Source: Endobacterium cereale (GTDB lineage Bacteria; Pseudomonadota; Alphaproteobacteria; Rhizobiales; Rhizobiaceae). Taken from it: a stretch of 64,000 bases of DNA. Numbering within the stretch: position 1 is the first letter of the stretch; each line of letters starts with the position of its first letter. A program made the position numbers and the translations under genes. The stretch covers positions 372,001-436,000 of the forward strand of contig NZ_WIXI01000051.1 of assembly GCF_009617585.1 (NCBI RefSeq), read 5' to 3'. Under the pieces are notes generated by a model, which did no database searches, was not told the DNA's origin, and saw nothing but the letters and a program-made list of their open reading frames with translations. Below are positions 6,086 to 38,813 of this stretch, piece by piece.

Positions 6086-6158
6086 CAAATGTCCTTTCGA
6101 ATAATTAGCGCGAGAATAGCGCCGGGGCGTGCCGCTGCAATGGGCAAGATACCGGTGT

Positions 6159-6830: not shown

Positions 6831-6836
6831 GCCCGG

Positions 6837-7331
6837 TCAGTCGTGATTGCAGTTCGGGCCATGCACATGCCCATGTCCGTGGTCATGAGAGTGCCCTCCA
6901 TGCGCGTGATAGGCGCCGCGCGCTGGCTGGAACGGCTCTTCGACATCATAAACCTTGGCACCGAGGCCTTCGAGCATGGAGCGAATGACATGGTCACGCA
7001 GGATGAGAATGCGGCCTTCCTCGATCTGCGCTGACAGATGCCGGTTGCCGAGATGCCAGGCAAGTTCGATCAGATGCAGCGTATCACGAGCGTTGATCTC
7101 ATACAGCTTTTCAGGGGCGGCCTGAACCTCGATCGTATCGCCGTTGTCGAGGATCAGCCGATCGCCGTGGTGAAACAGCACCGCTTCCTTGAGGTCGAGC
7201 ATCACCATATCGCCGTTCGACAGGTGCAGTAGCTTGCGGCGCAGATGGCGCAGATCGTGCGGCAGGCTGACGGTATCGACCGGCGGATCGGTGACGACGC
7301 CGGCGGGGCGATAATACTGGATATGCTGCAT
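6837..7331 (-). CDS. ureE: Urease nickel metallochaperone UreE
   Basis: 164 residues. The N-terminal peptide-binding domain ([19 protein letters not shown]) is followed by the metal-binding domain ([11 protein letters not shown], near the usual nickel His) and a His-rich tail, [19 protein letters not shown] then PNCNHD. Such tails store or deliver several nickel ions, as in Klebsiella UreE. The frame is open upstream to 7427, but [11 protein letters not shown] is the plausible start because the extra 32 codons run toward a terminator hairpin. The gene is separated from ureDABC by the sugar-transport cassette, so it needs its own promoter in the roughly 80 bases upstream. Confidence 0.95.
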
Positions 7332-7411
7332 GGTTTTCCCACTCGAATTTTTCTCCGCCGCATCATTGCCAACGGCAAGGCCAAGCACAAGCCCGGCGTG
7401 AGAAACATCCG

Positions 7412-7450
7412 CAAAAAGCAGATCCACCCGGGAGGGGCACCGGGTGGATC
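7412..7450 (-). terminator. Rho-independent terminator of the sugar operon
   Basis: Arms GATCCACCCGG (7421-7431) and CCGGGTGGATC (7440-7450) form an 11-bp GC-rich stem with an 8-base loop. Read on the minus strand, the stem is followed by TGCTTTTTGC. It lies 22 bases after the stop of the Gfo/Idh/MocA gene and insulates the sugar operon from ureEFG. Confidence 0.85.
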
Positions 7451-22205: not shown

Positions 22206-22224
22206 TGACACAAAATGTGTGTCA
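22206..22224. repeat. Hairpin overlapping the urtE stop codon
   Basis: TGACACA (22206-22212) and TGTGTCA (22218-22224) are perfect 7-bp arms around a 5-base loop, placed over the last codon and stop of urtE. There is no T-tract after it on the minus strand, so it could be an mRNA processing or stabilising structure between the urt and ure parts rather than a terminator. Confidence 0.5.
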
Positions 22225-22917
22225 GACCGTCAAGTGGCGCCTTGCTTCTGCCGTATCCAGCGTTTCAGCGGCCCCTTCATGCACAATCTCGCCACGATCC
22301 ATGATGTAGACGTGGTCGGCAAGCTCCCGGCAAAAATCCAGATATTGCTCCACCAGCAGGATGGCCATGCCCGTGGAATCACGCAAATAGCGGATCGCGC
22401 GGCCGATATCCTTGATGATCGAGGGCTGAATGCCTTCGGTCGGTTCGTCCAGCACGAGGATTTTGGGACGCGTGACCATGGCGCGGCCGATCGCCAGCTG
22501 CTGCTGCTGGCCGCCGGACAGATCACCACCGCGACGCGACAGCATCGATTTCAAAACTGGAAACAGCGTAAAGATATCGTCAGGGATGGTGCGCTCATTG
22601 CGTGCCAATGGTGCAAAACCGGTCTCGAGATTCTCCTTCACCGTCAGCAGCGGAAAAATCTCGCGACCCTGCGGCACGTAACCAATGCCCTGCTTGGCGC
22701 GGACATAGGGCGAAAGCCCGTTCATCGACACGCCATCGAAGGAAATCGTGCCACCGCTCACCGGCTTCTGGCCGGTCACCGCCCGCAGCAGTGAAGACTT
22801 GCCGACACCGTTGCGGCCGAGCACGCAGGTGATCCTGCCCATTTCGGCATGGATGGAGACACCACGCAGCGCTTGGGCGGCACCGTAATGCAGATTGACA
22901 TTGTTGACTGCGAGCAT
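22222..22917 (-). CDS. urtE: Urea ABC transporter ATP-binding subunit UrtE
   Basis: 231 residues, a LivF-like ATPase. Walker A is VLGRNGVGKSSLLRAV, the signature is LSGGQQQQLAIGRAMVTRP, and Walker B is ILVLDEPTEGIQPSIIKDIG. QYLDFCRELADHVYIMDRG follows. The EGIQPSII segment is typical of UrtE rather than LivF. The frame extends to 22986, but MLAVNNVNLHYGAAQAL is the normal N-terminus. Confidence 0.95.
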   Translation of the reverse strand: MLAVNNVNLHYGAAQALRGVSIHAEMGRITCVLGRNGVGKSSLLRAVTGQKPVSGGTISFDGVSMNGLSPYVRAKQGIGYVPQGREIFPLLTVKENLETGFAPLARNERTIPDDIFTLFPVLKSMLSRRGGDLSGGQQQQLAIGRAMVTRPKILVLDEPTEGIQPSIIKDIGRAIRYLRDSTGMAILLVEQYLDFCRELADHVYIMDRGEIVHEGAAETLDTAEARRHLTV

Positions 22918-23012
22918 CCCCGAAACCCTTTTCTTTTGCAGCGCCATGCGCGGCACATGGCACGCGAACGACGCTGCAACATCCAAAACAGAGCCTCGGC
23001 TTTGCCGATGCT

Positions 23013-23531
23013 CTAGCTCATGAGCGTGCGCCTGAGTACCTGGAGCGCCTGCTCCTGTTCATTCGTCCTGTCACCGCCGACTTCGGCGACTTCCTCGGCA
23101 ATGCCGATCAACTGTATCCGCTCGTTCGTATCCAGCGCCTTCATCCACATGTCGCGGAAGCGGCGGATCGGATCCTCCGGATTGATGGTGTTTTTCGAAG
23201 CCCATTCGCAAAACACCATCACTTCATCCATGTCGCCCGGCCGGATGATGCCGGCCATGCGGCTGCGGATGACATCCTTTGCCGCATCCAGATAGATCGG
23301 CTTTTCCTTGGCGATGCAGAAGAAGAAAGCCACCGCCGCAATCGCCGGATCGGCAATCGAAGCGAGAGGCGCAGCCTCCGCCTTCTTGCGAAACTGCCGG
23401 CGCTTGAAGGCGCCGCGCATGCGCTCGATACTGTCGATCACTTCGCTGCCCGCCTCGCGCACCATCTTCAAACGCCAGTACCAGACGGCCGCGCCGCCGA
23501 TCGCCATAACCAGAATGCCAAGCAAAGCCAT
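23013..23531 (-). CDS. Orphan membrane-anchored protein inside the urt operon
   Basis: 172 residues. One N-terminal membrane helix (LLGILVMAIGGAAVWYW) is followed by a soluble helical domain (DPAIAAVAFFFCIAKEKPIYLDAAKDVIRSRM, MDEVMVFCEWASKNTINPEDPIRRFRDMW). The alternation of helices faintly recalls TerB-like domains, which I cannot confirm. It lies between urtD and urtE in the same orientation with gaps of about 90 bases on each side, so it is probably part of the transcript. No function can be named. Confidence 0.75.
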   Translation of the reverse strand: MALLGILVMAIGGAAVWYWRLKMVREAGSEVIDSIERMRGAFKRRQFRKKAEAAPLASIADPAIAAVAFFFCIAKEKPIYLDAAKDVIRSRMAGIIRPGDMDEVMVFCEWASKNTINPEDPIRRFRDMWMKALDTNERIQLIGIAEEVAEVGGDRTNEQEQALQVLRRTLMS

Positions 23532-23623
23532 GATGAAACCTCACAGTAAAAACTGCCGGTTTTAAAGCTCTTTCCTCCATCACCGGCAAGACTTGAAGTT
23601 TTTCATGACCGCGCCAACTTGTG

Positions 23624-24385
23624 TCATCGCCCGAGATAGTTCTCGATCACCTTCGGATCGTTCGAAACGAAGTCGATCGAGCCTTCGGCAAGAACAGAAC
23701 CTTCCGCCAGACAGGTTACCTTGACGCCAAGCTCGCGGATAAACCCCATATCGTGCTCCACCACCACGACCGAGCGGCTTTTGGCGATCTCGCGCAGCAG
23801 CACCGCCGTTTCTGCCGTTTCGGCATCGGTCATGCCCGCCACCGGTTCATCCACCAGCAGCAATTTCGGCTCCTGAGCGAGCAGCATGCCGATCTCCAGC
23901 CACTGTTTTTGGCCATGACTGAGATTGGCGGCCAGTTCGTTGCGCCGATGGGTCATGCGAATGGTGTCGAGGATTTCCTCGATGCGCACGGTATCGTCGG
24001 CAGACAATTTATAAAACAGGGTCGAAAACACCCCGCGCGGCCGGTTCAGCGCCAGTTCCAGATTGTCCCAGACCGTATGGCTTTCGAACACTGTCGGTTT
24101 CTGGAATTTGCGACCGATGCCGAGCTGGGCGATATCCGCCTCGTCCTTTTTCGTCAGATCGATTTCATCCTCGAACAGCACCCGGCCCGTATCCGGCCGC
24201 GTCTTGCCGGTGATGATATCCATCATAGTCGTCTTGCCCGCACCGTTCGGCCCGATGATGGCGCGCAGCTCTCCCGGCTCGACCACAAAGGACAGCGAAT
24301 TGAGCGCCTTGAACCCGTCGAAGGAAACGGAGACGTCCTCAAGGTAAAGCAGGCTTTTCGAGCGTGTTTCGGCAATGGTGTTCAT
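23624..24385 (-). CDS. urtD: Urea ABC transporter ATP-binding subunit UrtD
   Basis: 253 residues, a LivG-like ATPase of the urea importer. Walker A is IIGPNGAGKTTMMDIITGKTRP. The UrtD-typical signature NLSHGQKQWLEIGMLLAQEP is followed by Walker B LLLVDEPVAGMTDAETAET and the H-loop VVEHDMGFIRELG. It follows urtC with a 14-base gap. Confidence 0.96.
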   Translation of the reverse strand: MNTIAETRSKSLLYLEDVSVSFDGFKALNSLSFVVEPGELRAIIGPNGAGKTTMMDIITGKTRPDTGRVLFEDEIDLTKKDEADIAQLGIGRKFQKPTVFESHTVWDNLELALNRPRGVFSTLFYKLSADDTVRIEEILDTIRMTHRRNELAANLSHGQKQWLEIGMLLAQEPKLLLVDEPVAGMTDAETAETAVLLREIAKSRSVVVVEHDMGFIRELGVKVTCLAEGSVLAEGSIDFVSNDPKVIENYLGR

Positions 24386-24399
24386 GATCCCGACCTCTC

Positions 24400-25563
24400 C
24401 TATTCCGCCGCCTGTGCGATCGGTGTCACGTCACCCCGACCCTTTTCGGCATCGCTGGCCACCTTGATCGCCTTTCGGGTGGAAAAACCGCCCTGGATGG
24501 TGCCGACAATGCCTTTGGGCAGGAACAGTGTGACCGCAATGAACAGGCCCCCCAGTGCAAACAGCCAGAGTTCCGGGAAGGCGCCGGTAAAATAGCTTTT
24601 TCCCGCATTGACCAGAACAGCACCGATGATCGGACCGATGAGCGTGCCGCGCCCGCCGACCGCCGTCCACACGACGACTTCGATCGAATTGGCCGGTGCG
24701 AACTCGCCCGGATTGATGATGCCGACCTGCGGCACGAACAGCGCACCGGCAATGCCGGCAAACATGGCCGAGACGACGAAGGTGAAAAGCTTGATGTTTT
24801 CGACACGGAAACCGAGGAAACGAACGCGGCTTTCGGCATCACGCACGCCGACCAGAACCTTGCCGAATTTGGAATTGACGATTGCCGACGCGATCAGCAG
24901 GCAAAGCGCCAGCATCAGCGCCGACATGGCAAACAGAACGGCACGTGTACCACCGGCCTGCACGGAAAAGCCGACGATTTCCTTGTAGTCGGTGAGGCCG
25001 TTATTGCCGCCGAACCCCATGTCGTTGCGGAAGAAGGAGAGCATCAGGGCATAGGTCATCGCTTGGGTGATGATCGACAGATAAACGCCGTTGACGCGGG
25101 AGCGAAACGCGAACCAGCCGAACACGAAGGCGAGAAGCCCCGGCACGAACAGCACCATCAGCATCGCGAACGGAAAGAAATCGAACCCGTACCAGAACCA
25201 CGGCAATTCCTTCCAGTTGAGGAAGACCATGAAATCCGGCAGGTCGGGATTACCATAGACGCCACGGGAACCGATCTGCCGCATCAGGTACATGCCCATG
25301 GCATAACCGCCGAACGCGAAGAAGGCGCCGTGGCCGAGCGAAAGAATGCCGCAATACCCCCAGACCAGATCGAGCGCCAAGGCGAGCAGCGCATAGCAGA
25401 GATATTTGCCCATCAGCGACATCACGTAGGTCGGGATATGCAGGGCATGGTCGGCTGGCAAAAGCAGGTTGGAGGCCGGCACCAGAACGGCGGCTGCGAG
25501 GATGACCACAACGGTCGCCAGAATATGGCTCTTGAGCGCACGAAAAATGAAAGCGGACATCAT
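24400..25563 (-). CDS. urtC: Urea ABC transporter permease UrtC
   Basis: 387 residues with about ten membrane helices, a LivM-like permease. LDLVWGYCGILSLGHGAFFAFGGYAMGMYL near residue 65-95 and VVWTAVGGRGTLIGPIIGAVLVNAGKSYFTGAFPELW near the end are characteristic of UrtC. The ATG overlaps the urtB stop (ATGA); a second ATG follows immediately. The C-terminus ends with a charged cytoplasmic tail. Confidence 0.96.
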   Translation of the reverse strand: MMSAFIFRALKSHILATVVVILAAAVLVPASNLLLPADHALHIPTYVMSLMGKYLCYALLALALDLVWGYCGILSLGHGAFFAFGGYAMGMYLMRQIGSRGVYGNPDLPDFMVFLNWKELPWFWYGFDFFPFAMLMVLFVPGLLAFVFGWFAFRSRVNGVYLSIITQAMTYALMLSFFRNDMGFGGNNGLTDYKEIVGFSVQAGGTRAVLFAMSALMLALCLLIASAIVNSKFGKVLVGVRDAESRVRFLGFRVENIKLFTFVVSAMFAGIAGALFVPQVGIINPGEFAPANSIEVVVWTAVGGRGTLIGPIIGAVLVNAGKSYFTGAFPELWLFALGGLFIAVTLFLPKGIVGTIQGGFSTRKAIKVASDAEKGRGDVTPIAQAAE

Positions 25564-27176
25564 GCTTCGATCGCCCTTCCCTTGAGCGCGAACAGGCCGC
25601 GCGGACGTTTCTGGATGAAGAGGATGATCAGCACGAGCACAAGGATCTTTCCGAGCACGGCCCCGACGGACGGTTCGAGGAACTTGTTGAGGATGCCAAG
25701 CGACAGAGCGCCCACCAACGTACCCCAGAGATTGCCGACACCACCGAACACCACGACCATGAAGCTATCGATGATGTAGCTCTGGCCGAGATTGGGCGAA
25801 ACGTTGTCGATCTGGGAGAGCGCCACGCCGGCAATGCCGGCAATGCCGGAGCCGAGCGCGAAGGTGAACGCATCCACCCACGGCGTCCTGATGCCCATGG
25901 ACGATGCCATGCGACGGTTCTGGGTGACGGCGCGCATCTGCAGTCCGAACGCGGAGCGCTTCATCAGCAACAGCAGGCCAACAAAAATCGACAGCGAGAA
26001 AACGACGATCCACATGCGGTTCCAGGTGATCGTCATGCCGCCGAGCGGAAACGAACCGGACATCCACGATGGATTGCCGACTTCCTGATTGGTCGGCCCG
26101 AAAATCGTCCGGATGCCCTGCTGCAGGATCAGCGAAATACCCCAGGTGGCGAGCAGTGTTTCCAGCGGCCGGCCATAGAGAAAGCGGATGACGCCGCGCT
26201 CTATGACAAGGCCGACAGCTCCAGTGACGAGGAACGCCACCGGCAGCGCTATGGCCAGCGACCAGTCGAACAGGCCGGGCGCATTTTCACGGATCACCTG
26301 CTGCACAACAAATGTGGAATAGGCGCCAAGCATGACCATTTCGCCATGCGCCATGTTGATGATGCCCATGACGCCAAAAGTGATGGCAAGGCCGATGGCG
26401 GCGAGCAGCAGCACGGAGCCGAGCGACAGGCCGTACCAGACGTTTTGCGCCATGTCCCACAGCTGTTGTTCGTTCTGGATCGAGGCAATAGCGGCCTCCA
26501 GATCGGGCTTCAGGCTGGCATCGATGGAAGAGGAAACGGAATTGAGGATGCCGAGCGCATCACGACCACCGAGTTTGCCGATGGTTTCGATGGCGGCGCG
26601 TTTTTCCTCGACGGAACGGTCGGAAGAAAGCAGCGAAACGGCGCGCGCCTCTTGCATGCGGGCCTTCACCGCACGGTCGCTTTCCTTGGCAAGTGCCGCT
26701 TCCACCAGTTCCAGCGCTTCGGCGCTTGGCGAACGCAGGATGGCATCGGCGGCGGCAAGGCGTGCACCACGATCCGGGCTCATCAGCGTCAAGCCACCGA
26801 GAGCGGCGCGAATGGCGCGGCGCAGGTTGTTGTTGACCTTGATCTTGGTGACGGCACCCTTGGCGACCTGACCGGCGCTTTCGCCCGTCACCGGATCGAT
26901 CAGTTCCAGCTGTGAAGCCGCGGCCTTGGCGGCAAACACCGCCTTGTCGGATTTGCGGAAATAGAGATCACCCTCGGCAAAGGCGTTGAGCGCCGGCACG
27001 ACGCGGGTGTCGCCAGTGGCGGCGATCTGCCCGACCAGCTTTTCCGCATCATTGAAATTGGCGTCGGCCAGCTGGTCGAACAGCGGCTTCGGATCGTTGC
27101 CTTGCGCAAAGGTTGGCGCAGCGAAGGCAAACGCCAGGAGCGTGATCAGAATTCGAAAGAAATGTCGTGTCGTCAT
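25560..27176 (-). CDS. urtB: Urea ABC transporter permease UrtB with periplasmic N-terminal domain
   Basis: 538 residues. A signal peptide (FFRILITLLAFAFAAPTFA) is followed by an extra soluble region of about 220 residues that looks alpha-helical and HEAT-like (repeated DAxxALxxLxS patterns). Then comes the LivH-like permease (GLSLGSVLLLAAIGLAITFGVMGIINMAHGEMVMLGAYSTF). The extension is a known feature of UrtB compared with LivH. ATG at 27176 is chosen because GAAGG lies 8 bases upstream; 27191 is an alternative. It is coupled to urtC by an ATGA overlap. Confidence 0.95.
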   Translation of the reverse strand: MTTRHFFRILITLLAFAFAAPTFAQGNDPKPLFDQLADANFNDAEKLVGQIAATGDTRVVPALNAFAEGDLYFRKSDKAVFAAKAAASQLELIDPVTGESAGQVAKGAVTKIKVNNNLRRAIRAALGGLTLMSPDRGARLAAADAILRSPSAEALELVEAALAKESDRAVKARMQEARAVSLLSSDRSVEEKRAAIETIGKLGGRDALGILNSVSSSIDASLKPDLEAAIASIQNEQQLWDMAQNVWYGLSLGSVLLLAAIGLAITFGVMGIINMAHGEMVMLGAYSTFVVQQVIRENAPGLFDWSLAIALPVAFLVTGAVGLVIERGVIRFLYGRPLETLLATWGISLILQQGIRTIFGPTNQEVGNPSWMSGSFPLGGMTITWNRMWIVVFSLSIFVGLLLLMKRSAFGLQMRAVTQNRRMASSMGIRTPWVDAFTFALGSGIAGIAGVALSQIDNVSPNLGQSYIIDSFMVVVFGGVGNLWGTLVGALSLGILNKFLEPSVGAVLGKILVLVLIILFIQKRPRGLFALKGRAIEA

Positions 27177-27235
27177 GGCGTCAGCCTTCATCGCCTATCT
27201 GCCGTCAGAGCTGCTCACCTGCAACTCGATGTTTC

Positions 27236-27320
27236 CGTCATCCTCGGGCTTGTCCCGAGGATCTGACACATCGACAGTATCAGGCAGGCGCAGATCCTCG
27301 GGACAAGCCCGAGGATGACG
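27236..27320. repeat. REP-like 30-bp perfect inverted repeat between urtB and urtA
   Basis: The left arm at 27236-27265 and the right arm at 27291-27320 are exact reverse complements over 30 bases, separated by a 25-base spacer. Each arm contains its own smaller palindrome, CCTCGGGCTTGTCCCGAGG, so it can fold either as two hairpins or as one long stem. Such palindromic intergenic elements are common in Rhizobiaceae and relatives. Located between urtA and urtB, it would dampen transcription downstream of urtA or stabilise the urtA message. Confidence 0.9.
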
Positions 27321-27420
27321 GTGGAGAGGTTCGCAGTCTCTAGAAGCAGTCAGGCTGAGCTTCAGCCAAGCCATAGATTTTGTTGGTGAGGGACAACGCC
27401 CCCACCAACCTATGTTCAAC

Positions 27421-28710
27421 TTAGCTGCCCTTGCCGCCGCACTTGCCGGTGGCAACATTAAAATTGCCGCATTCCATCGGCTTGCGCCAATCAGAGATCA
27501 GGTCCTTCGAATCCGGCAGGTAGTCCGACCATTCGTCGCCGACGACAGCCGGGGTTTCCTGCACGATGTCGAACTGGCCATCGGCCTGGATTTCACCGAT
27601 CAGAACCGGCTTGGTGATGTGGTGGTTCGGCATGACGGTCGAGGTGCCGCCCGACAGGTTCGGCACGGAAACACCGATGATGCTGTCCAGAACCTTGTCT
27701 GTTTCAACAGTGCCGGCAGCCTCGACGGCCTTCACCCAGGCATTGAAGCCGATATAGGCAGCTTCCATCGGGTCGTTGGTAACGCGCTTGTCGTTCTTGG
27801 TATAGGCGTGCCAGCTCTTGATGAATTCGGCATTGACCGGTGCATCGACGGACTGGAAGTAGTTCCACGCGGCGAGATGACCGACCAGCGGCGCCGTATC
27901 GAGACCAGCCAACTCTTCTTCGCCGACAGAGAAGGCGACGACCGGAATGTCTTCCGCCTTGACCCCCTGATTGCCGAGTTCCTTGTAGAACGGCACGTTG
28001 GCATCGCCATTGATGGTGGAAACGACGGCGGTCTTCTTGCCGGCAGAACCGAATTTCTTGATATCGGAGACAATCGTCTGCCAGTCGGAATGACCGAAAG
28101 GCGTGTAGTTGATCATGATGTCCTCTTCCTTGACGCCTTTCGACATCAGGTAGGCCTTCAGGATCTTGTTGGTCGTCTGCGGATAGACATAGTCGGTACC
28201 GGCAAGAACCCAGCGCTCGACGCCTTCGGTGGCAGCCAGATAATCGACAGCCGGAATGGCCTGCTGGTTCGGAGCAGCACCTGTGTAGAAGATGTTGCGC
28301 GAGGATTCCTCACCCTCGTATTGCACCGGATAGAACAGGATCGAGTTCAGTTCCTCGAACACAGGCAGCACGGATTTGCGCGAAGACGAGGTCCAGCAAC
28401 CGAAGACGGCGGCAACCTTGTCCTGAGAAATCAGCTGGCGGGCTTTTTCAGCGAACAGCGGCCAGTCGGAAGCCGGGTCGACGACAACGGCTTCGAGCTT
28501 CTTGCCGAGGACGCCACCCTTCTTGTTCTGCTCTTCGACGAGCATCAGCATGGCGTCTTTCAGCGTCGTTTCCGAAATCGCCATCGTGCCGGAAAGCGAG
28601 TGCAGCACGCCGATCTTGATCGTGTCGTCCGCCGCGAATGCGCCTTGGAAAGCCGTGGTGGACAGTGCGGCGGCCAGCAGCGCGCCTCCCAATCTTGCCT
28701 TGAATGTCAT
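27421..28710 (-). CDS. urtA: Urea ABC transporter substrate-binding protein UrtA
   Basis: 429 residues with a signal peptide (MTFKARLGGALLAAALSTTAFQGAFA). The mature protein begins DDTIKIGVLHSLSGTMAISETTLKDAMLMLVEEQN and has FGCWTSSSRKSVLPVFEELNSILFYPVQYEGEE, diagnostic for UrtA/FmdD-type binders of urea and short-chain amides. SDWPLFAEKARQLI is also typical. It is the first gene of the urt operon, with AAGAGGGG upstream of the ATG and about 200 bases of promoter region. Confidence 0.97.
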   Translation of the reverse strand: MTFKARLGGALLAAALSTTAFQGAFAADDTIKIGVLHSLSGTMAISETTLKDAMLMLVEEQNKKGGVLGKKLEAVVVDPASDWPLFAEKARQLISQDKVAAVFGCWTSSSRKSVLPVFEELNSILFYPVQYEGEESSRNIFYTGAAPNQQAIPAVDYLAATEGVERWVLAGTDYVYPQTTNKILKAYLMSKGVKEEDIMINYTPFGHSDWQTIVSDIKKFGSAGKKTAVVSTINGDANVPFYKELGNQGVKAEDIPVVAFSVGEEELAGLDTAPLVGHLAAWNYFQSVDAPVNAEFIKSWHAYTKNDKRVTNDPMEAAYIGFNAWVKAVEAAGTVETDKVLDSIIGVSVPNLSGGTSTVMPNHHITKPVLIGEIQADGQFDIVQETPAVVGDEWSDYLPDSKDLISDWRKPMECGNFNVATGKCGGKGS

Positions 28711-28808
28711 GGTCGAACCCCTCTTCTTGTTCGTTCAAGCAAGGCGGGCAAAGCCTCTTGTTAACCGTTGCTTGAGAGGACTATCGGCCGCTGCACCGCA
28801 AACCCGAA

Positions 28809-28824
28809 TACGTAAAATGACGTA
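28809..28824. promoter_or_regulatory. TACGT-N6-ACGTA palindrome upstream of urtA
   Basis: TACGTAAAATGACGTA has perfect 5-base arms with a 6-base centre, about 100 bases upstream of the urtA start. The geometry suits a dimeric NarL/LuxR-type response regulator or another two-fold symmetric protein. A NarL-type response regulator is encoded 9 kb away in this window. The role is inferred from position and symmetry. I looked for a sigma-54 type -24/-12 in the same region and did not find one with correct spacing. Confidence 0.5.
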
Positions 28825-28914
28825 GCCGCGGGGGAGAAATGGAGGTTTTGCGCAAGTATTGGTCACGCCGGCCCGGAATGATAACCTGCCGTGATGTTCA
28901 TCAAGGAGAAGAAC

Positions 28915-30593: not shown

Positions 30594-30691
30594 GATACCG
30601 ATCCGGTATGAATTGAAACAAAAATCAGTATTGGATGGAATTGATCGCAAGGACTAGACCGGACACAGATTTTTTGCCTCCGGTCTTCGCC

Positions 30692-31636
30692 ATGCTTGCC
30701 ACGCTTACCGTCGTTCTTCCCATCTTTGCGCTGATCTTTGCCGGCTGGCTCGCCCGCCGCATCGGCGCGCTTGGCCCCAATGCCACCAGCGAACTCAACC
30801 GTTTTGTCGTTTCTCTGGCCCTGCCCGCGCTGCTGCTCGATATCACCGCGCATGCCCGCTGGGTCGATGTCTGGCAGCCCGGCTTCATCGCCGCCTTCAC
30901 GCTCGGCGCCTTCATCGTTTTCGTGCTGACGATCCTTTACCGCCTGCGCCGTCCCCGACATCTGGCGGACGCCACGATCGACGGGCTGAACGCGGCCTAT
31001 GCCAATACCGGTTTCGTTGGTTTTCCGCTGGCGGCCGCAGCGCTCGGGCCGGCGGCCCTTGCCCCGACGTTGATTGCCACCATCATCACCGTCTGCGTGC
31101 TGTTCGCGGCCGCCATCATCCTCATCGAAACCGGATTGCAGACCGAAAAACGGCGCTCGAAACTGTTCATCAAGGTCGGTGGTTCGCTGATCCGCAATCC
31201 ACTGCTGATCGCCCCCGTCATCGGCGCCATCATCCCGATCTGCGGCCTGACCGTGCCCGCTCCTGTCGAAACTTTTCTAAAACTGCTCGGCGGCGCGGCC
31301 TCGCCCTGTGCATTGGTAGCACTTGGCCTGTTTCTGGCGGCAAAACGTGACAGCTCAGAGCGCGACATCAAATCCGCAGCGCTGCTGACCAGCTTCAAAC
31401 TCATCCTGCAGCCGGCCATCACCTGGGTGCTGGCCGCACTGATCTTTGATCTGCCGCCAAATTTGGTTCACGCCGCCGTGCTTCTGGCGGCACTGCCCAC
31501 CGGCACCGGCTCCTTCATGCTGGCGGAATTCTACAAGCGCGAGGCCGGCGTCACCTCCAATGTGATCCTGACATCAACGGTACTCTCGGTGGTGACCGTC
31601 AGCCTCTATCTGGCATTGGTCGGGCCAAGCGGCTGA
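30692..31636 (+). CDS. AEC (auxin efflux carrier-like) family transporter
   Basis: 314 residues with ten membrane helices in two five-helix halves joined by a charged cytoplasmic loop (TGLQTEKRRSKLFIKV). The N-terminal half contains NRFVVSLALPALLLDIT and the crossover-type region YANTGFVGFPLAAAALG. The C-terminal half has PCALVALGLFLAAK and LPTGTGSFMLAEFYKREAGVTSNVILTSTVLSVVT, both family hallmarks. Substrates in bacteria include malonate and other carboxylates. ATG at 30692 is chosen; an upstream start at 30635 would overlap the regulatory region. Confidence 0.9.
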   Translation: MLATLTVVLPIFALIFAGWLARRIGALGPNATSELNRFVVSLALPALLLDITAHARWVDVWQPGFIAAFTLGAFIVFVLTILYRLRRPRHLADATIDGLNAAYANTGFVGFPLAAAALGPAALAPTLIATIITVCVLFAAAIILIETGLQTEKRRSKLFIKVGGSLIRNPLLIAPVIGAIIPICGLTVPAPVETFLKLLGGAASPCALVALGLFLAAKRDSSERDIKSAALLTSFKLILQPAITWVLAALIFDLPPNLVHAAVLLAALPTGTGSFMLAEFYKREAGVTSNVILTSTVLSVVTVSLYLALVGPSG

Positions 31637-31640
31637 AACA

Positions 31641-33293
31641 TCAGGAAGCGGATTTCCACGGCCGCAATCCCTCCAGCAGGATGTCAAAACTGTCGATACG
31701 AACAGCATCGGCAAGCGGGTCCTTGACGATGTCATTGACAAGCAGAAGCGACGGCATCGTTTCACTCTGACGATAATCCAGAAGCAGCGCCTCATTTTTC
31801 CTGTACTGCAGGATCACCAATCGCTCCGCACCCGCATGCTTTTCCCGCAGTGGCAGCTCGTCGTCCGGCCAGGTGATGCGGTCGGAAAGATCGGCAAGCG
31901 TCGTAAAATACTCCATTGGCATCAATTGTTTCGGCAGTTCCGCCTCGGCGTAAGGCTCGCCGGCCTTGCTGGTCTGAAAATGGCGGGCGGCCAGCGCACC
32001 GCCATTGCGGTAACGCCATAACGCCACCAATGCCGACGGCAATGTCACGCCCAGCCGCGTCTGCGTTTCCGCAATCAAGTTGTCATCGGCCTTTTTCTTC
32101 GGCTCGGAGCCATCCTTGCGCGATCCGGCAATATTGGCGAACACATGCGGATCTGAGCCCCAGAATTCCGAGGGCTGCTGCGCTGGCATGTATTCGCCAA
32201 TCGGCTTCTTGCGGTAGGCAAGCAAACGATCGCCGGTCGTGAGCTTTTCCGGATATTCGCGCCTCAACTCGACAAAAAAGCTGTCGAAATCGGGAAACTG
32301 GATATCTTTCGATTGTTTCGGCCCTTCATCGAAATCCACAAGCCAGACGCGTGCTTCCAGCCCATAGCTGTAATCCAGCAGCGTCATATCCTGATAACGC
32401 GCCTGCAGCACAACAAGCTTGTCGGCATTAACCGGCATCTCATCGGGATCGTCGGTAAAGTCCTCATAGAGATCCTTCACCGTGCGCAAGTTTTTCAACG
32501 AATGCAGCTGCGAATAATCGATCGAAAAAGCACCCCGCCAGTCATCGTAAAACGGACCGGGATCAGCCTTCAGCGGCACATACATCCAGCCGACATAACC
32601 GCCATCCATGACCTTGTAGAGATCACGTAGCCCCTCCGGCAGCTTGAAACCCAATCGCGCTTCGGTCGCGGCGATATCATCTTCACTGGCCGCATCCGCC
32701 TTTTTCACCACGGGTTTGCCACGCCCTTCCATCGCATCTTCAAGTGCGTCGGCTTTCCAGTAACCGGGCGAGACATAAAAGCTTTGCAGTGTCAGCGGCG
32801 TCGGATCGATATTGAGTTCGACCTCTTCATCGGCATTTCGCGTCTGCCCTTTGCCGGACAAGACAGCGGCAGGAACGGATACCTGCGCCTCGCCAGCTGA
32901 GCGGGCCTCCAGCACATTGATGAAGCCGGCAAGAGCTACGGAAAACACGAACATGACGGCGGCTGTGACGAGATCTGCCGATGTGAGTACCTGCAAGCCG
33001 GTCGACGCCCCCACCAGCATGCTGGCCCCAAGGCCGAACAGGAAAAACACCGATACGAGAATCAACTGGATCGGCATGGTTACGAGAATGGACAGAAGGA
33101 TCATCTTCAGGCCACCACTCCGCCAGGCCAGTTTCCACCTGTCCCATTTGCCAAGAGCGTAAAGCGCGGTGAAGGCCGGCGTTGCCAAAAGGATCAGCCA
33201 TGCCGACCGGTTCAGGAAACCCGCGATGATCACCGCAAGTACAATCGCTGCGCCCATGAACATGCGTAGGCTGCCCGATAATTTAGTCGTCAT
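31641..33293 (-). CDS. Membrane protein with two SMI1/KNR4-like domains
   Basis: 550 residues. The N-terminal third has several hydrophobic helices (FMGAAIVLAVIIAGFLN, WLILLATPAFTALYAL, LLSILVTMPIQLILVSVFFLFG, LVTAAVMFVFSVALAGFI). Two cytoplasmic SMI1/KNR4-type regions follow, around residues 205-330 (AATEARLGFKLPEGLRDLYKVMDGGYVGW) and 400-540 (AETQTRLGVTLPSALVALWRYRNGG). These domains are frequent in immunity proteins of polymorphic toxin systems and in cell-wall-linked regulators. No toxin gene is adjacent. The start is the ATG after a GTG-led extension. Confidence 0.8.
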   Translation of the reverse strand: MTTKLSGSLRMFMGAAIVLAVIIAGFLNRSAWLILLATPAFTALYALGKWDRWKLAWRSGGLKMILLSILVTMPIQLILVSVFFLFGLGASMLVGASTGLQVLTSADLVTAAVMFVFSVALAGFINVLEARSAGEAQVSVPAAVLSGKGQTRNADEEVELNIDPTPLTLQSFYVSPGYWKADALEDAMEGRGKPVVKKADAASEDDIAATEARLGFKLPEGLRDLYKVMDGGYVGWMYVPLKADPGPFYDDWRGAFSIDYSQLHSLKNLRTVKDLYEDFTDDPDEMPVNADKLVVLQARYQDMTLLDYSYGLEARVWLVDFDEGPKQSKDIQFPDFDSFFVELRREYPEKLTTGDRLLAYRKKPIGEYMPAQQPSEFWGSDPHVFANIAGSRKDGSEPKKKADDNLIAETQTRLGVTLPSALVALWRYRNGGALAARHFQTSKAGEPYAEAELPKQLMPMEYFTTLADLSDRITWPDDELPLREKHAGAERLVILQYRKNEALLLDYRQSETMPSLLLVNDIVKDPLADAVRIDSFDILLEGLRPWKSAS

Positions 33294-33362
33294 CAAATCC
33301 ACAACCCGAAACTTAAAAAATCTCGAGATGATCTTGGTCAGATCGGGCAGAAGGCAAGAGGT

Positions 33363-34184
33363 TTAGTTCGGTCGGTTCCTGAGTGCTTCCGCCTGCGCAT
33401 AAAACTTCTTTTCCCACTCCTTGTGGTTATCCAGCCCCTCGCGGATGAACGGCGTAAAGATTGCCATATGCATCAGCATCCAGTTGACCAGCCGGGCAGG
33501 AAAATTGAGTGGCTTCACGAAGTCTACGAACATCACCACGCGGGTCTTGTCCGTGTGGTTCCACGCTTCATGTTCATAGGCATCGTCGAAGATCAGCACT
33601 TTGCCCTCTTGCCAATGGCAGATCTGGTCTTTGACGCGGATGGCGAGGTCATCTCCCCTATTGTCCGGCACGATCAGGCCGAGATGCAGGCGCAGCACGC
33701 CATTATACGGCCCGCGATGCGCCGGCAGATGTTTGCCCGGCTCGAAGATGGAAAACATCACCGTCGTCAGGCCCGGGATTTTCTGGCAGGCATTCCACGT
33801 GTCGGGGCAGGCTTTTATATTCTGCTCGGAGCGCACGCCAAAACCGAGCAGAAAAAAGGTCTTCCAACCCTGATCGGTGGAGATCGTCTTCACGTCGGTG
33901 GAAATGTCCTGAAAACTCGGCAGCTCGTCCTTGCGCACCAGAATGCGATCAAGCTCGGCACGAATGGCCGGCGCTGCCTTTTCGATCTCGGCCGCCCAGG
34001 GAAAGGTCGCATTGTCATAGACCGGTGGATTGCCGAGCTTGGCATGTTTGAAGTTCAGCTTCTCCGCCCAGGCCACAATGCCCATGAAAAAGCGGGTGAC
34101 GGGGCTGGCACGTTCCATCGGCGCAATGCCGGAAGTGCCGAAATTCTGCGAAGGTTCTGGTGCGTCATCAGATGTGGATGTCAC
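33363..34184 (-). CDS. Aspartyl/asparaginyl beta-hydroxylase (LpxO-like)
   Basis: About 273 residues, a non-haem Fe(II)/2-oxoglutarate dioxygenase. The iron ligands are seen as HLPAHRGPYNGVLRLHLGLIV (first His) and the distal His in FDDAYEHEAWNHTDKTRVVMFVDF, with the Arg for 2-oxoglutarate. The sequence is similar to LpxO, which hydroxylates lipid A acyl chains at the membrane, and to peptide hydroxylases. A hydrophobic C-terminal region (LVNWMLMHMAIFTPF) fits a membrane-associated enzyme. The start is uncertain: GTG at 34184 is chosen from family length, ATG at 34118 is possible, and the frame is open to 34436. Confidence 0.85.
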   Translation of the reverse strand: MTSTSDDAPEPSQNFGTSGIAPMERASPVTRFFMGIVAWAEKLNFKHAKLGNPPVYDNATFPWAAEIEKAAPAIRAELDRILVRKDELPSFQDISTDVKTISTDQGWKTFFLLGFGVRSEQNIKACPDTWNACQKIPGLTTVMFSIFEPGKHLPAHRGPYNGVLRLHLGLIVPDNRGDDLAIRVKDQICHWQEGKVLIFDDAYEHEAWNHTDKTRVVMFVDFVKPLNFPARLVNWMLMHMAIFTPFIREGLDNHKEWEKKFYAQAEALRNRPN

Positions 34185-34483
34185 GGGAAACGCCTGAAGT
34201 GATGGGTTGATCTGGCGCGGCAACAAAACGACACCGACCGCCGCCTTGCCGGTGAGGATACCTGACATTGATCGATCTGACATGGAGCGGCTGCACGGCC
34301 TTGCAAGAACTGCCGTAGAACGCGATGCCAACCCGGCGCGTTGTGATGACCGGCGCAACAATGGCGCGGGAAAATCCGGCGAAACAATGACCACCGCGGT
34401 TGCAGACGGCTTGCCAAACAACGTGCTGCCGGTCAAAACTGCCTAATAATCGACCTCCCCGCAAAAGGCGCTGGATTTTAGGC

Positions 34484-37400
34484 ATGGCCGCACGGCAACG
34501 TATCATTCCTGTCCGGCGCGAATACAATCGCTGGGTGGCCAACCAGACGCTGGAAGACTATGCGCTGCGGTTTACCGCCAAGAGCGCCCGGCGATTTTCC
34601 TCCAGCCGCATTTCGCAGACAGCCATCGGCGCCATCTCGTTTCTGGCGCTGGAAGCGATCGGCGGCACGATCACCCTTTCCTACGGCACTACCAACGCGT
34701 TTTTCGCCATCATCGCCGCCGCCATCGTGATGCTTCTGGTCGGCTTGCCGATCAGCCGTTACGCCATCCGCCACGGCGTCGATATCGATCTTCTGACGCG
34801 CGGCGCGTCCTTCGGCTATATCGGCTCGACCATCACTTCGCTGATTTATGCCAGCTTCACCTTCATGCTGTTTGCGATCGAGGCGTCGATCATGACCGGA
34901 GCGCTGGAACTCGCCTTCGGCATCCCGCCCTGGATCGGCTACATCGTCAGCGCCGTCGTTGTTGTTCCGCTGGTCATCTACGGCGTGCAGATGATCTCGC
35001 GTTTCCAGTTGATCACCCAGCCGTTCTGGATCGTCCTCAACATCCTGCCCTTCATGTTCATCGCGTTTCTGGATTGGGAAAAGTTCGATCTCTGGCGCGC
35101 CTTTGCCGGGATCGGCCATTCCAACGGCGAAATCGGTGGCGCGGCCCCTTTCGATCTGGTCGAATTCGGCGCGGCCTCAGCCGTCATTCTCGCCCTGATG
35201 CCGCAGATCGGCGAACAGGTCGACTTCTTGCGCTTTCTTCCACCGGAATTGCCGACATCCACGGGCCTGCGCAAATGGCGACATCGCATCGCCATATTTC
35301 TGGCCGGCCCTGGCTGGGTCGTTGTGGGGGTGCCGAAACTTCTAGCCGGCTCGTTTCTGGCCGTGCTGACGCTGTCGACCGCCGTGCCGATGCATGAAGC
35401 CGCCGATCCGGCCCACATGTATCTCACAGCCTTCGGCTACATGATTCCCAACCAAACGGCGGCACTTCTGCTGATGGCCGCCTTCGTGGTCGTGTCACAG
35501 CTGAAGATCAACGTCATGAACGCCTATGCCGGTTCGCTGGCATGGTCGAATTTTTTCTCACGCCTGACGCATAGCCATCCCGGCCGCGTCGTCTGGCTGG
35601 TCTTCAATGCCGCCATCGCACTTCTGTTGATGGAACTCGGCATCTATCGCCTGCTGGAGGCAACGCTCGGCATCTTTTCGATCATCGCCATGAGCTGGCT
35701 CTGCACCATCTCGGCCGATCTCTTCATAAACAAGCCGCTTGGCCTTTCCCCCGAAGGCATCGAGTTCAAGCGTGCCCATCTCTACGACATCAACCCGGTT
35801 GGAATAGGCGCCATGTTCGGCTCGGCCACGATCGCGCTTGCAGCCCATTTCGGCCTGTTCGGACCGCTCTGGGCATCGCTTTCGACCTACATCACCTTGA
35901 TCGCGCTTCTGCTCTCACCGGCCATCGCCTTCGCCACCAAAGGCAAATATTACCTCGCCCGCAAACAGCGAAAGAGCTGGGCGACACTGGGTACGATTAC
36001 CTGCTCGATCTGCGAACACCCGTTCGAACACGAGGACATGGCTTGGTGTCCCGCCTATGCCGCGCCGATCTGTTCGCTCTGCTGTTCGCTGGACAGCCGC
36101 TGTCACGACATGTGCAAACCGCATGCGCGGCTGAATACGCAGGTCGGCACTGTAGCACGCACTTTCTTATCCGAAACCGTCATCACCAAACTGACGACAC
36201 GCTTGGGCCGTTACGCCACAACCGCCGTGCTCTCCATTTCAGCCATGGGCGGCATTCTGGCAATGATCGCCTATCAGGCCGGAGAAGCAGCACCCGCCAA
36301 TGCCGAAATCATCTATGGCACGATCTCGATCGTATTTTTCGTCTTCGCCATCATGGCCGGCATCGTTTCATGGTTTTATGTGCTGGCCCATGACAGCCGG
36401 GTGGTGGCGGAAGAGGAATCCTCACGCCAGAACACGCTGCTGCTCAAGGAAATCTCCGCCCACAAGAAAACTGACGCCGCCCTGCAGGAGGCCAAAGAGA
36501 CAGCCGAGGCGGCCAACCGCGCCAAAAGCCGCTATGTGGTTGGTCTTTCCCACGAGTTGCGGACGCCACTGAACGCCGTACTCGGTTACGCCCAAATCCT
36601 CGAGCGCGACGACACCATCCCCGCCCCGCGCCAATCCGCCATCAAGGTGATCAAGCGTTCCGCCGACCATCTGTCGGGCCTGATCGATGGCCTGCTCGAT
36701 ATCTCGAAAATCGAAGCCGGCCGGTTGCAGGTCTATTCCAATGAGATCAACATTCAGGATTTTCTCGACCAGATCGTCGAAATGTTTTCGCTTCAGGCGC
36801 ACGCCAAAGGTCTGACTTTCGCCCACGACCGCGCCAAAACCCTGCCGCAATATGTCCGAACCGACGAAAAACGCCTGCGCCAGATTCTGGTCAACCTGCT
36901 CTCCAACGCCATCAAATTCACCGATCGCGGCACGGTGCGTTTCGACATCGCCTATCGCAGCCAGGTCGCAACCTTCACCATTTCCGACACAGGTCGCGGC
37001 ATTGCCGAAAAAGATCTTGGCCGCATCTACGAACCGTTTCAGCGTGGCGAAGCGGACAATGTCCGCCCGATGCCGGGTCTGGGCCTCGGCCTCACCATCA
37101 CCCAATTGCTGACCAACACGATGGGCGGTGAAATCACCGTCTCGAGCGTCAAGGATGAAGGCTCGACCTTCAAGGTGCGGCTGATGCTGTCAGCCGTGCA
37201 CCGGCCCAGCACAGCACCGGCGCTGGAAAAGAAGATCACCTCCTACACCGGCCCACGTCGTACCATCGTCGTGGTCGATGACAACGAAGATCACCGCGAA
37301 CTGATGCGTGAAGTTCTCACCCCGATGGATTTCGTCGTGCTGACGGCGGCAAGCGGACCGGAATGCCTGACGCTGATCGAAGGTGTGAAACCTGATCTCT

Positions 37401-37882
37401 TTCTGGTCGACATTTCCATGCCCGGCATGAACGGCTGGCAGCTGGTCGCCAGACTGCGCGAACTGGAACAGAAAGCACCGATCGTCATGCTGTCGGCCAA
37501 TATCGGCGATGGCGCCGGCAATCCGGATGGCACCGATGGCCATAACGATGCGATCGCCAAACCAGTCAGTGTCCGCCGCCTTGCCGACAAGCTCGCCGTC
37601 CATCTAGGTCTGACATGGATCTATGAGCAAGACCAACCGGTCGAGCCGCCACCAAAACCTGCCGTGGTCAAAAGCCCCGGCTTCCCGCACCTGCAGGACC
37701 TTCTACAGTTGGGTGAAATCGGCTATGTCCGCGGCATCGAGGCAAAACTTGCCGATCTCGCAAAGTCCGACGAACACCGACCCTTTACCGAGCAAGCCGG
37801 CGCCTATGTGCAGGCTTTCGACATTGCCGGTTACATGGCCTTCCTGAACCGTTTTGACGAGGAACACACCGACCATGCCTGA
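34484..37882 (+). CDS. NCS1 permease-like hybrid sensor histidine kinase with receiver domain
   Basis: 1132 residues. Residues about 20-490 form a 12-helix NCS1 (cytosine/purine/allantoin permease family) region opening with LEDYALRFTAKSARRFS. Residues 506-545 carry eight Cys (CxxC-x11-C-x7-CxxCC-x5-C-x3-C), a likely zinc site. Two more helices and a coiled coil lead to HisKA (phospho-acceptor His690 in SHELRTPLNAVLGY) and HATPase_c (NLLSNAIKFTD; GLGLGLTITQLL). A receiver follows (VVVDDNEDHRE; acceptor Asp976 in FLVDISMPGMNG), then a tail of about 85 residues. The transporter part probably senses a nucleobase or ureide. The gene overlaps the next response regulator by 8 bases. Confidence 0.92.
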   Translation: MAARQRIIPVRREYNRWVANQTLEDYALRFTAKSARRFSSSRISQTAIGAISFLALEAIGGTITLSYGTTNAFFAIIAAAIVMLLVGLPISRYAIRHGVDIDLLTRGASFGYIGSTITSLIYASFTFMLFAIEASIMTGALELAFGIPPWIGYIVSAVVVVPLVIYGVQMISRFQLITQPFWIVLNILPFMFIAFLDWEKFDLWRAFAGIGHSNGEIGGAAPFDLVEFGAASAVILALMPQIGEQVDFLRFLPPELPTSTGLRKWRHRIAIFLAGPGWVVVGVPKLLAGSFLAVLTLSTAVPMHEAADPAHMYLTAFGYMIPNQTAALLLMAAFVVVSQLKINVMNAYAGSLAWSNFFSRLTHSHPGRVVWLVFNAAIALLLMELGIYRLLEATLGIFSIIAMSWLCTISADLFINKPLGLSPEGIEFKRAHLYDINPVGIGAMFGSATIALAAHFGLFGPLWASLSTYITLIALLLSPAIAFATKGKYYLARKQRKSWATLGTITCSICEHPFEHEDMAWCPAYAAPICSLCCSLDSRCHDMCKPHARLNTQVGTVARTFLSETVITKLTTRLGRYATTAVLSISAMGGILAMIAYQAGEAAPANAEIIYGTISIVFFVFAIMAGIVSWFYVLAHDSRVVAEEESSRQNTLLLKEISAHKKTDAALQEAKETAEAANRAKSRYVVGLSHELRTPLNAVLGYAQILERDDTIPAPRQSAIKVIKRSADHLSGLIDGLLDISKIEAGRLQVYSNEINIQDFLDQIVEMFSLQAHAKGLTFAHDRAKTLPQYVRTDEKRLRQILVNLLSNAIKFTDRGTVRFDIAYRSQVATFTISDTGRGIAEKDLGRIYEPFQRGEADNVRPMPGLGLGLTITQLLTNTMGGEITVSSVKDEGSTFKVRLMLSAVHRPSTAPALEKKITSYTGPRRTIVVVDDNEDHRELMREVLTPMDFVVLTAASGPECLTLIEGVKPDLFLVDISMPGMNGWQLVARLRELEQKAPIVMLSANIGDGAGNPDGTDGHNDAIAKPVSVRRLADKLAVHLGLTWIYEQDQPVEPPPKPAVVKSPGFPHLQDLLQLGEIGYVRGIEAKLADLAKSDEHRPFTEQAGAYVQAFDIAGYMAFLNRFDEEHTDHA

Positions 37883-38813
37883 CACGACAACGCCCCGCGA
37901 TATCGTGCTTCTGGTCGATGACAGCCCGGAGGCGCTGGGTTTCCTGACCGACGCACTGGAACAGTCCGGTTTTTCCGTGCTGATCGCCACCTCGGGACAA
38001 GCGGCGCTTTCCATCGTCGAGCGCATCACGCCCGATCTGGTGCTGATGGATGCCGTCATGCCCAACATGGACGGTTTTGAAACCTGCCGCCGCCTGAAAG
38101 CCCATGGCGCGGTGGTGCAGGTGCCGGTTATCTTCATGACCGGCCTCACCGACACCGAACACGTCGTCAACGCGCTGGACAGTGGCGGCGTCGATTACCT
38201 CACCAAGCCGATCAATATCGACGAGCTGCGCGCTCGCATCCGCGTCCATCTCTCCAATGCCCGTTCGGCCCAGAGCGCCCGCGTCGCGCTCGATGCCGCC
38301 GGCCGACATCTGCTCGCAGCCCGTGGCTCCGGTTCGGTTCACTGGTCCACCCCGCAGGCCACGCGGCTGATCAATGCCGCCACCGGCAGCGATGAGGGTC
38401 TGGAAATCGTCGCCACCCGCCTTGCCGGCTGGATGGCCGAGCGCAACAAGCCGGGCTTTTCCCGTGAGGCCAGCTTTTCCCTCCCCTCGCCAACGGCCAA
38501 TGCGGCGGAAGCGGCCAGCCTGCAATTTTCGTTTTTGGGCGCGATCGGTGCCGACGAATTTCTGTTCCGCCTAACCGCCGCCCGCGAACGGTCCGATGAT
38601 GCCGTACTACGGCAGCATTTTCCGCTGACCCAACGCGAATCCGAAGTGCTGCTCTGGATCGCCAAGGGCAAGGCCAATCGCGACATCGCCGACATTCTGG
38701 GGCTTTCGGCGCGCACGGTGAACAAGCATCTCGAACAGATCTATGTGAAGCTCGGCGTGGAAAATCGCGCATCGGCCGCGGTCAAAGCCGCGCATGTGCT
38801 GCACGAGATGTGA
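37875..38813 (+). CDS. Response regulator, receiver plus LuxR/NarL-type output domain
   Basis: 312 residues. The N-terminal receiver has VLLVDDSPEALGF (acidic pocket), phospho-acceptor Asp59 in LVLMDAVMPNMDGFET, Thr in FMTGLTDTE and Lys in YLTKPINIDELRA. A 90-residue middle part of unknown fold precedes the C-terminal LuxR-type helix-turn-helix (LTQRESEVLLWIAKGKANRDIADILGLSARTVNKHLEQIYVKLGVENRASA). It is translationally coupled to the permease-type kinase and is its obvious phosphotransfer partner. It should bind two-fold symmetric DNA; the TACGT-N6-ACGTA site before urtA is a candidate target. Confidence 0.94.
   Translation: MPDTTTPRDIVLLVDDSPEALGFLTDALEQSGFSVLIATSGQAALSIVERITPDLVLMDAVMPNMDGFETCRRLKAHGAVVQVPVIFMTGLTDTEHVVNALDSGGVDYLTKPINIDELRARIRVHLSNARSAQSARVALDAAGRHLLAARGSGSVHWSTPQATRLINAATGSDEGLEIVATRLAGWMAERNKPGFSREASFSLPSPTANAAEAASLQFSFLGAIGADEFLFRLTAARERSDDAVLRQHFPLTQRESEVLLWIAKGKANRDIADILGLSARTVNKHLEQIYVKLGVENRASAAVKAAHVLHEM

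Follow-up and report, generated by a model that had tools for sequence, protein, structure and literature searches.

The question raised by this locus is what a histidine kinase that begins with a permease-like domain may perceive, and which genes it may control. The locus is found in a 64,000-nucleotide stretch of Endobacterium cereale DNA (contig NZ_WIXI01000051.1, positions 372,001 to 436,000), hereafter the window, and consists of a hybrid sensor kinase and a LuxR/NarL-type response regulator at 34484..38813. We propose that the two proteins probably form a two-component system responsive to urea or short-chain amides, which would activate urtABCDE in the window and fmd operons in other genomes. 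The proposal builds on the domain layout, the homology of the membrane domain to NCS1 transporters, a set of invariant cysteines, the gene neighbourhood and a palindrome linked to the presence of the kinase, all of them established by computation.

Architecture of the kinase and origin of its membrane domain

The pair and its parts are laid out as follows:

34484..37882, + strand: hybrid sensor histidine kinase, NCS1-type, 1132 amino acids, ATG start (open reading frame, Pfam and relatives)
34508..35977, + strand: NCS1-like membrane domain, residues 9-498 (hhalign match to 15 NCS1 proteins, 99.1%, E 5e-19)
36002..36115, + strand: eight-cysteine module, residues 507-544 (alignment of homologues; putatively metal-binding)
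36200..36394, + strand: linker with two likely transmembrane helices, residues ~573-637 (low-confidence model and hydrophobic stretches)
36524..36721, + strand: HisKA with phospho-acceptor His690 (Pfam; residue position)
36860..37189, + strand: HATPase_c (Pfam)
37265..37594, + strand: C-terminal receiver of the kinase, Asp976 (Pfam; residue position)
37875..38813, + strand: response regulator with receiver and LuxR/NarL-type helix-turn-helix, Asp59 in ATG numbering (Pfam), overlapping the kinase stop

Re-reading of the open reading frames together with Pfam gave the same coordinates, frame and domain layout as a preliminary description of this DNA. Pfam places HisKA at residues 681-746, HATPase_c at 793-902 and Response_reg at 928-1037 of the kinase, so that the protein, with His690 in HisKA and Asp976 in the C-terminal receiver, is a hybrid histidine kinase. 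The regulator matches Response_reg and GerE, the LuxR helix-turn-helix, which is conserved among 52 aligned regulators. Its ATG (37875) and the kinase stop (37882) overlap by eight bases, and a TTG at 37854 is a possible alternative start.

The membrane domain had been described as resembling an intact cytosine/purine permease; its NCS1 origin stands, by profile-profile comparison, but an ordinary profile match to such a permease was not found. The NCS1 model PF02133 gave no match at E<=1 to the window domain or to any of 58 homologues (0/58), a null result to be read with the fact that the HMMER filters discard most weak matches; it also gave no match at E<=0.001 in the window's own genome, and NCBIfam gave none to the N-terminal domain. 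Since these searches of the N-terminal domain returned nothing, profile-profile comparison was used, and hhalign aligned the family with 15 PF02133-bearing proteins over 395 columns at the value listed above. A standalone protein of 497 amino acids (L189) stands in between, being matched by the family hidden Markov model (HMM) at E 1.5e-47 and by PF02133 at E 4e-9, and the closest standalone relatives are NCS1 transporters according to Pfam. Judged from these profiles, the membrane domain shares descent, remotely, with the NCS1 family. Two other identities were rejected by the same method: that of SLC5, whose SSF domain is the transporter part of the known SLC5-type transporter-kinase fusions (0.3% to nine SSF proteins), and that of a UrtC-like permease (0.6% against 30 UrtC permeases). 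As judged from sequence only, L189 (8948-10441) adjoins a nitrilase-like gene and a second standalone relative, L191 (9239-10594), biotin-dependent carboxylase-like genes.

The PDB gave no match to the family profile alone; a mixed NCS1 profile found CodB and Mhp1, as expected of such a profile, and was used only for the placement of residues. On the alignment to Mhp1, Asn318 corresponds to N346 and is kept in 58/58 homologues, while Gln121 is replaced by Glu133 in all 58. Trp117 and Trp220, which we take to sandwich the substrate ring in Mhp1, are replaced by Phe (49) or Leu (9) and by Leu (57/58), respectively. At Ser312 and Thr313, presumably residues of the Na2 site, the family has Lys (58/58) and Ile (57/58). 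Residues E133, K341, N343 and N346 are invariant in the 58 homologues. The three nearest standalone proteins share Glu and Lys/Arg at two of the compared Mhp1 positions (L189 and L191 have Glu at the position of E133 and Arg at that of K341), and these changes are therefore not specific to the fusion and no proof that transport has been lost.

Between this domain and the kinase core lies the eight-cysteine module, C507-x2-C510-x11-C522-x7-C530-x2-C533-C534-x5-C540-x3-C544, which has exactly the spacing noticed beforehand. All eight cysteines are invariant in the 58 aligned kinases, which by their kinship codes span the window's class and other classes of its phylum. A profile of the cysteine/transmembrane module gave 28 matches in 26 of 200 genomes (E<=0.001), all 28 inside kinases of the same family; the 35 linkers scanned have no Pfam family in common, and the PDB gave no informative match for the module. 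The module is probably metal-binding, presumably at a zinc site. The two likely transmembrane helices that follow it before HisKA come from a low-confidence model and from hydrophobic stretches of the sequence. A plasmid of Streptomyces chartreusis encodes a standalone protein of 573 amino acids (L257:9863-11584) that is 41-43% identical to the sensor domain of the kinase and ends in a partial module (CxxC, C, CxxC); it may give a picture of the raw material of the fusion.

Urea and amide genes and a shared palindrome

The genes that we predict to be the target in the window, and the site before them, are:

27421..28710, - strand: urtA, substrate-binding protein of the urea ATP-binding cassette (ABC) transporter, predicted first gene of the target operon (Pfam Peripla_BP_5, E 1e-160)
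25560..27191, - strand: urtB, permease
24400..25563, - strand: urtC, permease
23624..24385, - strand: urtD, ATPase
22222..22986, - strand: urtE, ATPase
28808..28825, no strand assigned: predicted binding palindrome ATACGTAAAATGACGTAG (matrix scan), its centre 106.5 bp before the start of urtA

The urtABCDE genes (22222-28710, minus strand) lie upstream of the kinase and a liv operon downstream; both the urt and the ure genes that had been noted near the kinase are present in the window. The kinase was confirmed in 554 stretches of one genome collection, and 77 of the best 80 of them (the close loci) have urtA upstream, on the other strand. For a wider view we used 57 distant loci, amounting to 1.10 Mb in total and 27 family codes. 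Genes of a urt/fmd-type (urea/short-amide) ABC transporter, urease or amidase/formamidase occur within the 20 kb read in 53 of the 57, and in 51 under a stricter filter (at least 35% identity); the two loci lost at this filter (L154, L160) have urtC, a porin-like gene and a UrtA-type match next door. Of the 27 family codes sampled, 26 have such linked genes, and one family has no linked member. None of 61 control loci around other transporters has a linked gene, a background that is only rough because these loci are shorter (only ~4 kb each).

Besides the kinase and the regulator, 17 gene clusters recur in at least five of the 57 distant loci: UrtA-type (41), UrtC (39), UrtD/E (31), the formamidase FmdA (27), UrtB (26 and 9), a zinc ribbon presumably of the FmdB type (21), UreC (9), UreG (8), CN_hydrolase (7), UreB (7), UreF (7), a porin-like protein (6), UreD (6), an unnamed cluster without Pfam match (6), UreA (5) and HupE/UreJ (5). 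No known purine or allantoin gene is among them. The order of the genes varies by lineage, the kinase being divergent from fmd, divergent from urt or downstream of ure, which argues against mere inherited synteny. Three loci without a kinase of the family (L157, L189, L191) were excluded from the distant set, and a fragment (L106, from genome G326) was not used; the close matches G417, G475, G611, G623 and G662, several same-order matches (e.g. G479, G506, G521, G560) and G583 also stand outside it.

Expectation maximisation (EM) on 28 divergent intergenic regions of the distant loci, a training set with none of the 80 close loci and no sequence of the window, found de novo the motif aTACGTCA-NN-TGACGTAt, with a total score of 341 against 170-177 in three shuffles. 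The matrix was built from 20 sites in distinct regions, since five of the 28 regions gave none (L136, L144, L155, L159 and L190, the last sharing the window's family code) and three were duplicates. In the window the matrix finds one strong site (score 26.5; 20 shuffled windows peak at 16.5), located before urtA, at a distance of 5.7 kb from the kinase. No second exact match exists in the 6.1-Mb assembly, and a single other place comes within one mismatch. All 77 close loci with urtA have a site (score at least 18) 75-117 bp upstream of this gene, and there is no other site of that score in 1.68 Mb of close loci, nor any in the control loci (239 kb). In Sinorhizobium (S.) meliloti, where the kinase lies 8 kb from urtA, the site is at urtA and not at the kinase.

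A site with a score of at least 15 is present in 43 of the 57 distant loci, a count that is not independent because most training regions belong to the same loci. In 33 of them it precedes a UrtA/FmdD-type gene, at 69-173 bp in 31 and at ~1 kb in two (L156, L169), distances up to 1.2 kb having been allowed; the remaining sites precede fmdA, porin-like genes or the kinase.

The site is linked to the presence of the kinase. Among 65 regions upstream of urtA/fmdD-type genes from 63 kinase-negative genomes, a subset of such genomes, none reaches a score of 15 (best 13.6; region L332 has only 167 bases). Counted by genome, the exact pattern is found in 16 of the 52 that are kinase-positive and in 14 of the 344 that are kinase-negative (odds ratio 10.5; one-sided p 3e-8, with no correction for relatedness), whereas a reversed control pattern (5/52 against 47/344) has no association, with p 0.51. 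Only the 52 genomes that match strongly count as kinase-positive here; the matches in G536, G554, G595 and G732 are weak or fragmentary, and these four were placed among the negatives. In 13 of the 16 positive genomes the pattern lies in the kinase/urt/fmd cluster. Of the 14 negative genomes with the pattern, 12 have no UrtA match, and in the remaining two (G331, G655) the UrtA match is distant from the site. The suspected link of the kinase to urea use is thus much stronger than proximity, given the 26 family codes and the palindrome shared before the urtA/fmdD-type gene.

Other genes of the window stand around these. The urease genes are split into ureG/F/E (5474-7427) and ureC (16644-18353); genes for a sugar-type ABC transporter and a GFO/IDH/MocA oxidoreductase separate the two groups. 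The interval 30635-34436, between urtA and the kinase, contains an aspartyl/asparaginyl hydroxylase-like gene, present in 21 of 81 close loci, as well as genes for an AEC-type transporter and a SUKH-domain protein, neither of which passed the same filter in any of the 81.

Proposed mechanism and competing explanations

We propose that the NCS1-derived domain, no longer like a sodium symporter for a flat ring, may bind a small amide of the urea, formamide or acetamide type. The ensuing conformational change would be relayed through the eight-cysteine module, probably a zinc site, and the two transmembrane helices to the kinase, where His690 would be phosphorylated. The phosphoryl group would then pass to the LuxR-type regulator, a transfer for which the receiver of the kinase may act as a gate. 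Once phosphorylated, the regulator would bind TACGTCA-N2-TGACGTA at ~70-175 bp before urtA in the window, or before fmdD, fmdA or porin-like genes in other genomes, and switch on the uptake and hydrolysis of urea and amides. The urt and fmd targets both transport urea, and the fmd type also short amides.

Several observations weigh against this proposal. An AlphaFold model of residues 1-639 from 61 close sequences is too poor (predicted local distance difference test, pLDDT, 52.6) to judge the LeuT-type fold of NCS1 proteins, a 5+5 inverted repeat with 12 helices. Four of the 57 distant loci (L147, L149 and L151 of one genus, and L152) have no linked genes nearby, and in that genus the only pattern match precedes the kinase itself. 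No site of score 15 or more lies in the stretch read in 14 of the 57; in two of these (L349, L350) there is a site at urtA, shortly beyond that stretch. In the EM search the real data were given 40 starts and each shuffle 12, which favours the real score, and the 77 close loci are not 77 independent cases because they are related. When the kinase lies elsewhere in the genome, a separate true urtA is without the site in 13 of 16 genomes, overlaps removed; it has the site in G505 and G520, where the kinase is next to urease genes, and marginally in G042. As such a separate urtA is mostly siteless, the site marks the system that is controlled in each case. The palindrome could also be bound by a different protein, and the literature searched holds no binding, expression or ligand experiment on the system.

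The alternative that survives best is that the kinase is both transporter and sensor, taking up urea or an amide itself and signalling its flux. CbrA, of the SLC5 type, is reportedly active both in transport and as a kinase (PMC7096432), and the nearest standalone relatives of the membrane domain are transporters. The replacement of both presumed Na2-site residues speaks against it, although the Lys/Arg of the standalone proteins weakens this argument, and we consider a double function doubtful but worth keeping in mind.

Somewhat less likely still is sensing in the cytoplasm through the cysteine cluster (zinc, redox or nitrogen state), with the NCS1 domain mainly a transporter or an anchor. 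The invariance of the eight cysteines agrees with it, and, according to the excerpts available of this and the other articles cited below, sensing in CbrA is thought to be cytoplasmic and its transporter domain is not essential for it (PMC9100948). Because of that precedent the NCS1 domain may be dispensable for sensing here too, a further point against our proposal. Against a mere anchor stands the conservation of the NCS1 domain, which equals that of the kinase core: mean column identity is 0.69 in the NCS1 domain, 0.74 in the cysteine stretch, 0.70 in HisKA, 0.66 in HATPase and 0.51 in the receiver, and 123 of 490 columns of the NCS1 domain are at least 95% identical. In addition, E133, K341, N343 and N346 are kept throughout, and the gene context is that of urea and amides, not of metals or redox.

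A nucleobase, hydantoin or ureide such as allantoin had also been suggested as the ligand by which the kinase would tune urea use. Urea is a product of ureide breakdown, and the sensor domain is homologous to NCS1. The characterised bacterial NCS1 substrates are mostly N-heterocycles (PMC13390362). The suggestion was not borne out: the 17 recurring clusters, one of them unnamed, hold no known purine, hydantoin or allantoin gene while formamidase is in 27 of the 57 loci, and the tryptophan pair of Mhp1 is replaced. Moreover, one NCS1 protein is described as taking metformin, a non-cyclic biguanide, and a ring is therefore not required of an NCS1 substrate. We regard such a ligand as improbable. 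That the adjacent liv (branched-chain amino acid) operon is the target and the urea link an accident of synteny is very improbable. In its favour, most of the 81 close loci have liv genes next to the pair; against it, liv is not among the recurring clusters of the distant loci, and the palindrome (score at least 18) occurs only upstream of urtA in the 80 close loci.

Relation to known systems and distribution

The closest parallel to the proposed urea/amide-responsive system is found in the SLC5/STAC sensor kinases (CbrA, CrbS, RpuS), which likewise have a transporter-like membrane domain fused to a histidine kinase, with a STAC domain between the two. As in the CrbS branch, a cytosolic HisKA/HATPase core and a LuxR-type partner are present; CrbS is a hybrid kinase, and its partner CrbR depends on an imperfect inverted repeat that precedes the target genes (PMC5715377, PMC9100948). 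In contrast, the membrane domain is SLC5 there and NCS1 here, the linker has the eight-cysteine module and two likely transmembrane helices, the predicted targets are urea/amide genes, and the examples of CrbR (ACTU) sites in the excerpts differ from the palindrome found here. By its architecture, the family works like these kinases but lacks the SLC5 domain that defines them. With the NCS1 transporters (Mhp1, CodB, MetT) it shares homology over ~395 columns, the kept Asn318 and Glu133 in place of Gln121, whereas the fusion to a kinase, the position below Pfam detection and the changed aromatic pair and Na2 residues set it apart.

Many relatives adjoin formamidase, zinc-ribbon, porin-like and urea/amide ABC genes, as in the fmd cluster of Methylophilus methylotrophus; the link of that cluster to the present kinase is our proposal. 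The fmd genes of this organism are induced by formamide and urea, and the main text of the review, in the part available, contains neither 'two-component', 'histidine kinase' nor 'sensor' (PMC10781810). The urea-induced UilS of Serratia, reported to act through CpxR, is unrelated (PMC11633161).

On pSymB of S. meliloti ABS7 (L255:13368-19219) the homologous pair adjoins a dctA-type symporter, a sensor kinase and dctD. Its locus tags we take to be SMb20609 and SMb20610, and from the order kinase-regulator-dctA on pSymB we infer that SMb20609 is the orthologue of the window kinase. A 2025 article calls SMb20609 a functionally uncharacterised histidine kinase on pSymB whose promoter is bound by PhaR, and places SMb20609, the regulator SMb20610, UreA and UreB in module 1, raised without PhaR (PMC12542648), which gives one more hint of the proposed role.

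Searches of the open literature, with most subscription journals outside its coverage, listed no paper on an NCS1-kinase fusion. One genome paper includes a hybrid kinase and a LuxR regulator in its drawing of urea genes, purely as annotation (PMC13296017), and a review cites a thesis whose title combines NCS1 transporters with sensor kinases, as separate topics. Transporter-fused kinases are thus already known (SLC5/STAC), and the NCS1-fused variant with an eight-cysteine linker appears to be new as far as the open literature searched goes.

The kinase is found in 27 of 385 genomes of a class sample, of which G326 has only a fragment and G138 matches weakly, and in 56 of the 398 genomes of a phylum sample, 52 with strong matches. 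Among plasmids, 532 records match, 518 of them over at least 80% of the query; Klebsiella accounts for 342 of the 532, and the other genera named include Burkholderia (Beta) and Acinetobacter (Gamma). One Klebsiella region (L256:5909-16264) has amiF-urtEDCBA divergent from the kinase and regulator, so that formamidase, urtABCDE, kinase and regulator form one unit on a conjugative plasmid typed IncFIB/IncFII. No relative was confirmed in the viral contigs scanned. Two shorter kinases (L183:8298-10955, 885 amino acids; L185:8362-11046, 894 amino acids) have HisKA and HATPase and no receiver according to Pfam, and adjoin the formamidase FmdA, a receiver/kinase protein and a regulator of the OmpR and not the LuxR type; their loci hold no palindrome at score 15.

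More tentatively, and with less confidence than in the regulatory role itself, we suggest that the family may represent a new class of sensor, an NCS1 'transceptor' kinase, in which a transporter fold now serves as the receptor for urea and short amides and signals to the kinase through an eight-cysteine metal module that is complete only in this family. It might then be the inducer switch that urt and fmd operons have so far lacked throughout the Pseudomonadota, with copies on conjugative Klebsiella plasmids among them. Urea and formamide are common nitrogen sources, and the analysis names a kinase, a regulator, a DNA site and a list of targets for their use. If this is true, NCS1 would be, like SLC5, a transporter fold that has been put to use in sensing, and its linker matches no common Pfam family.

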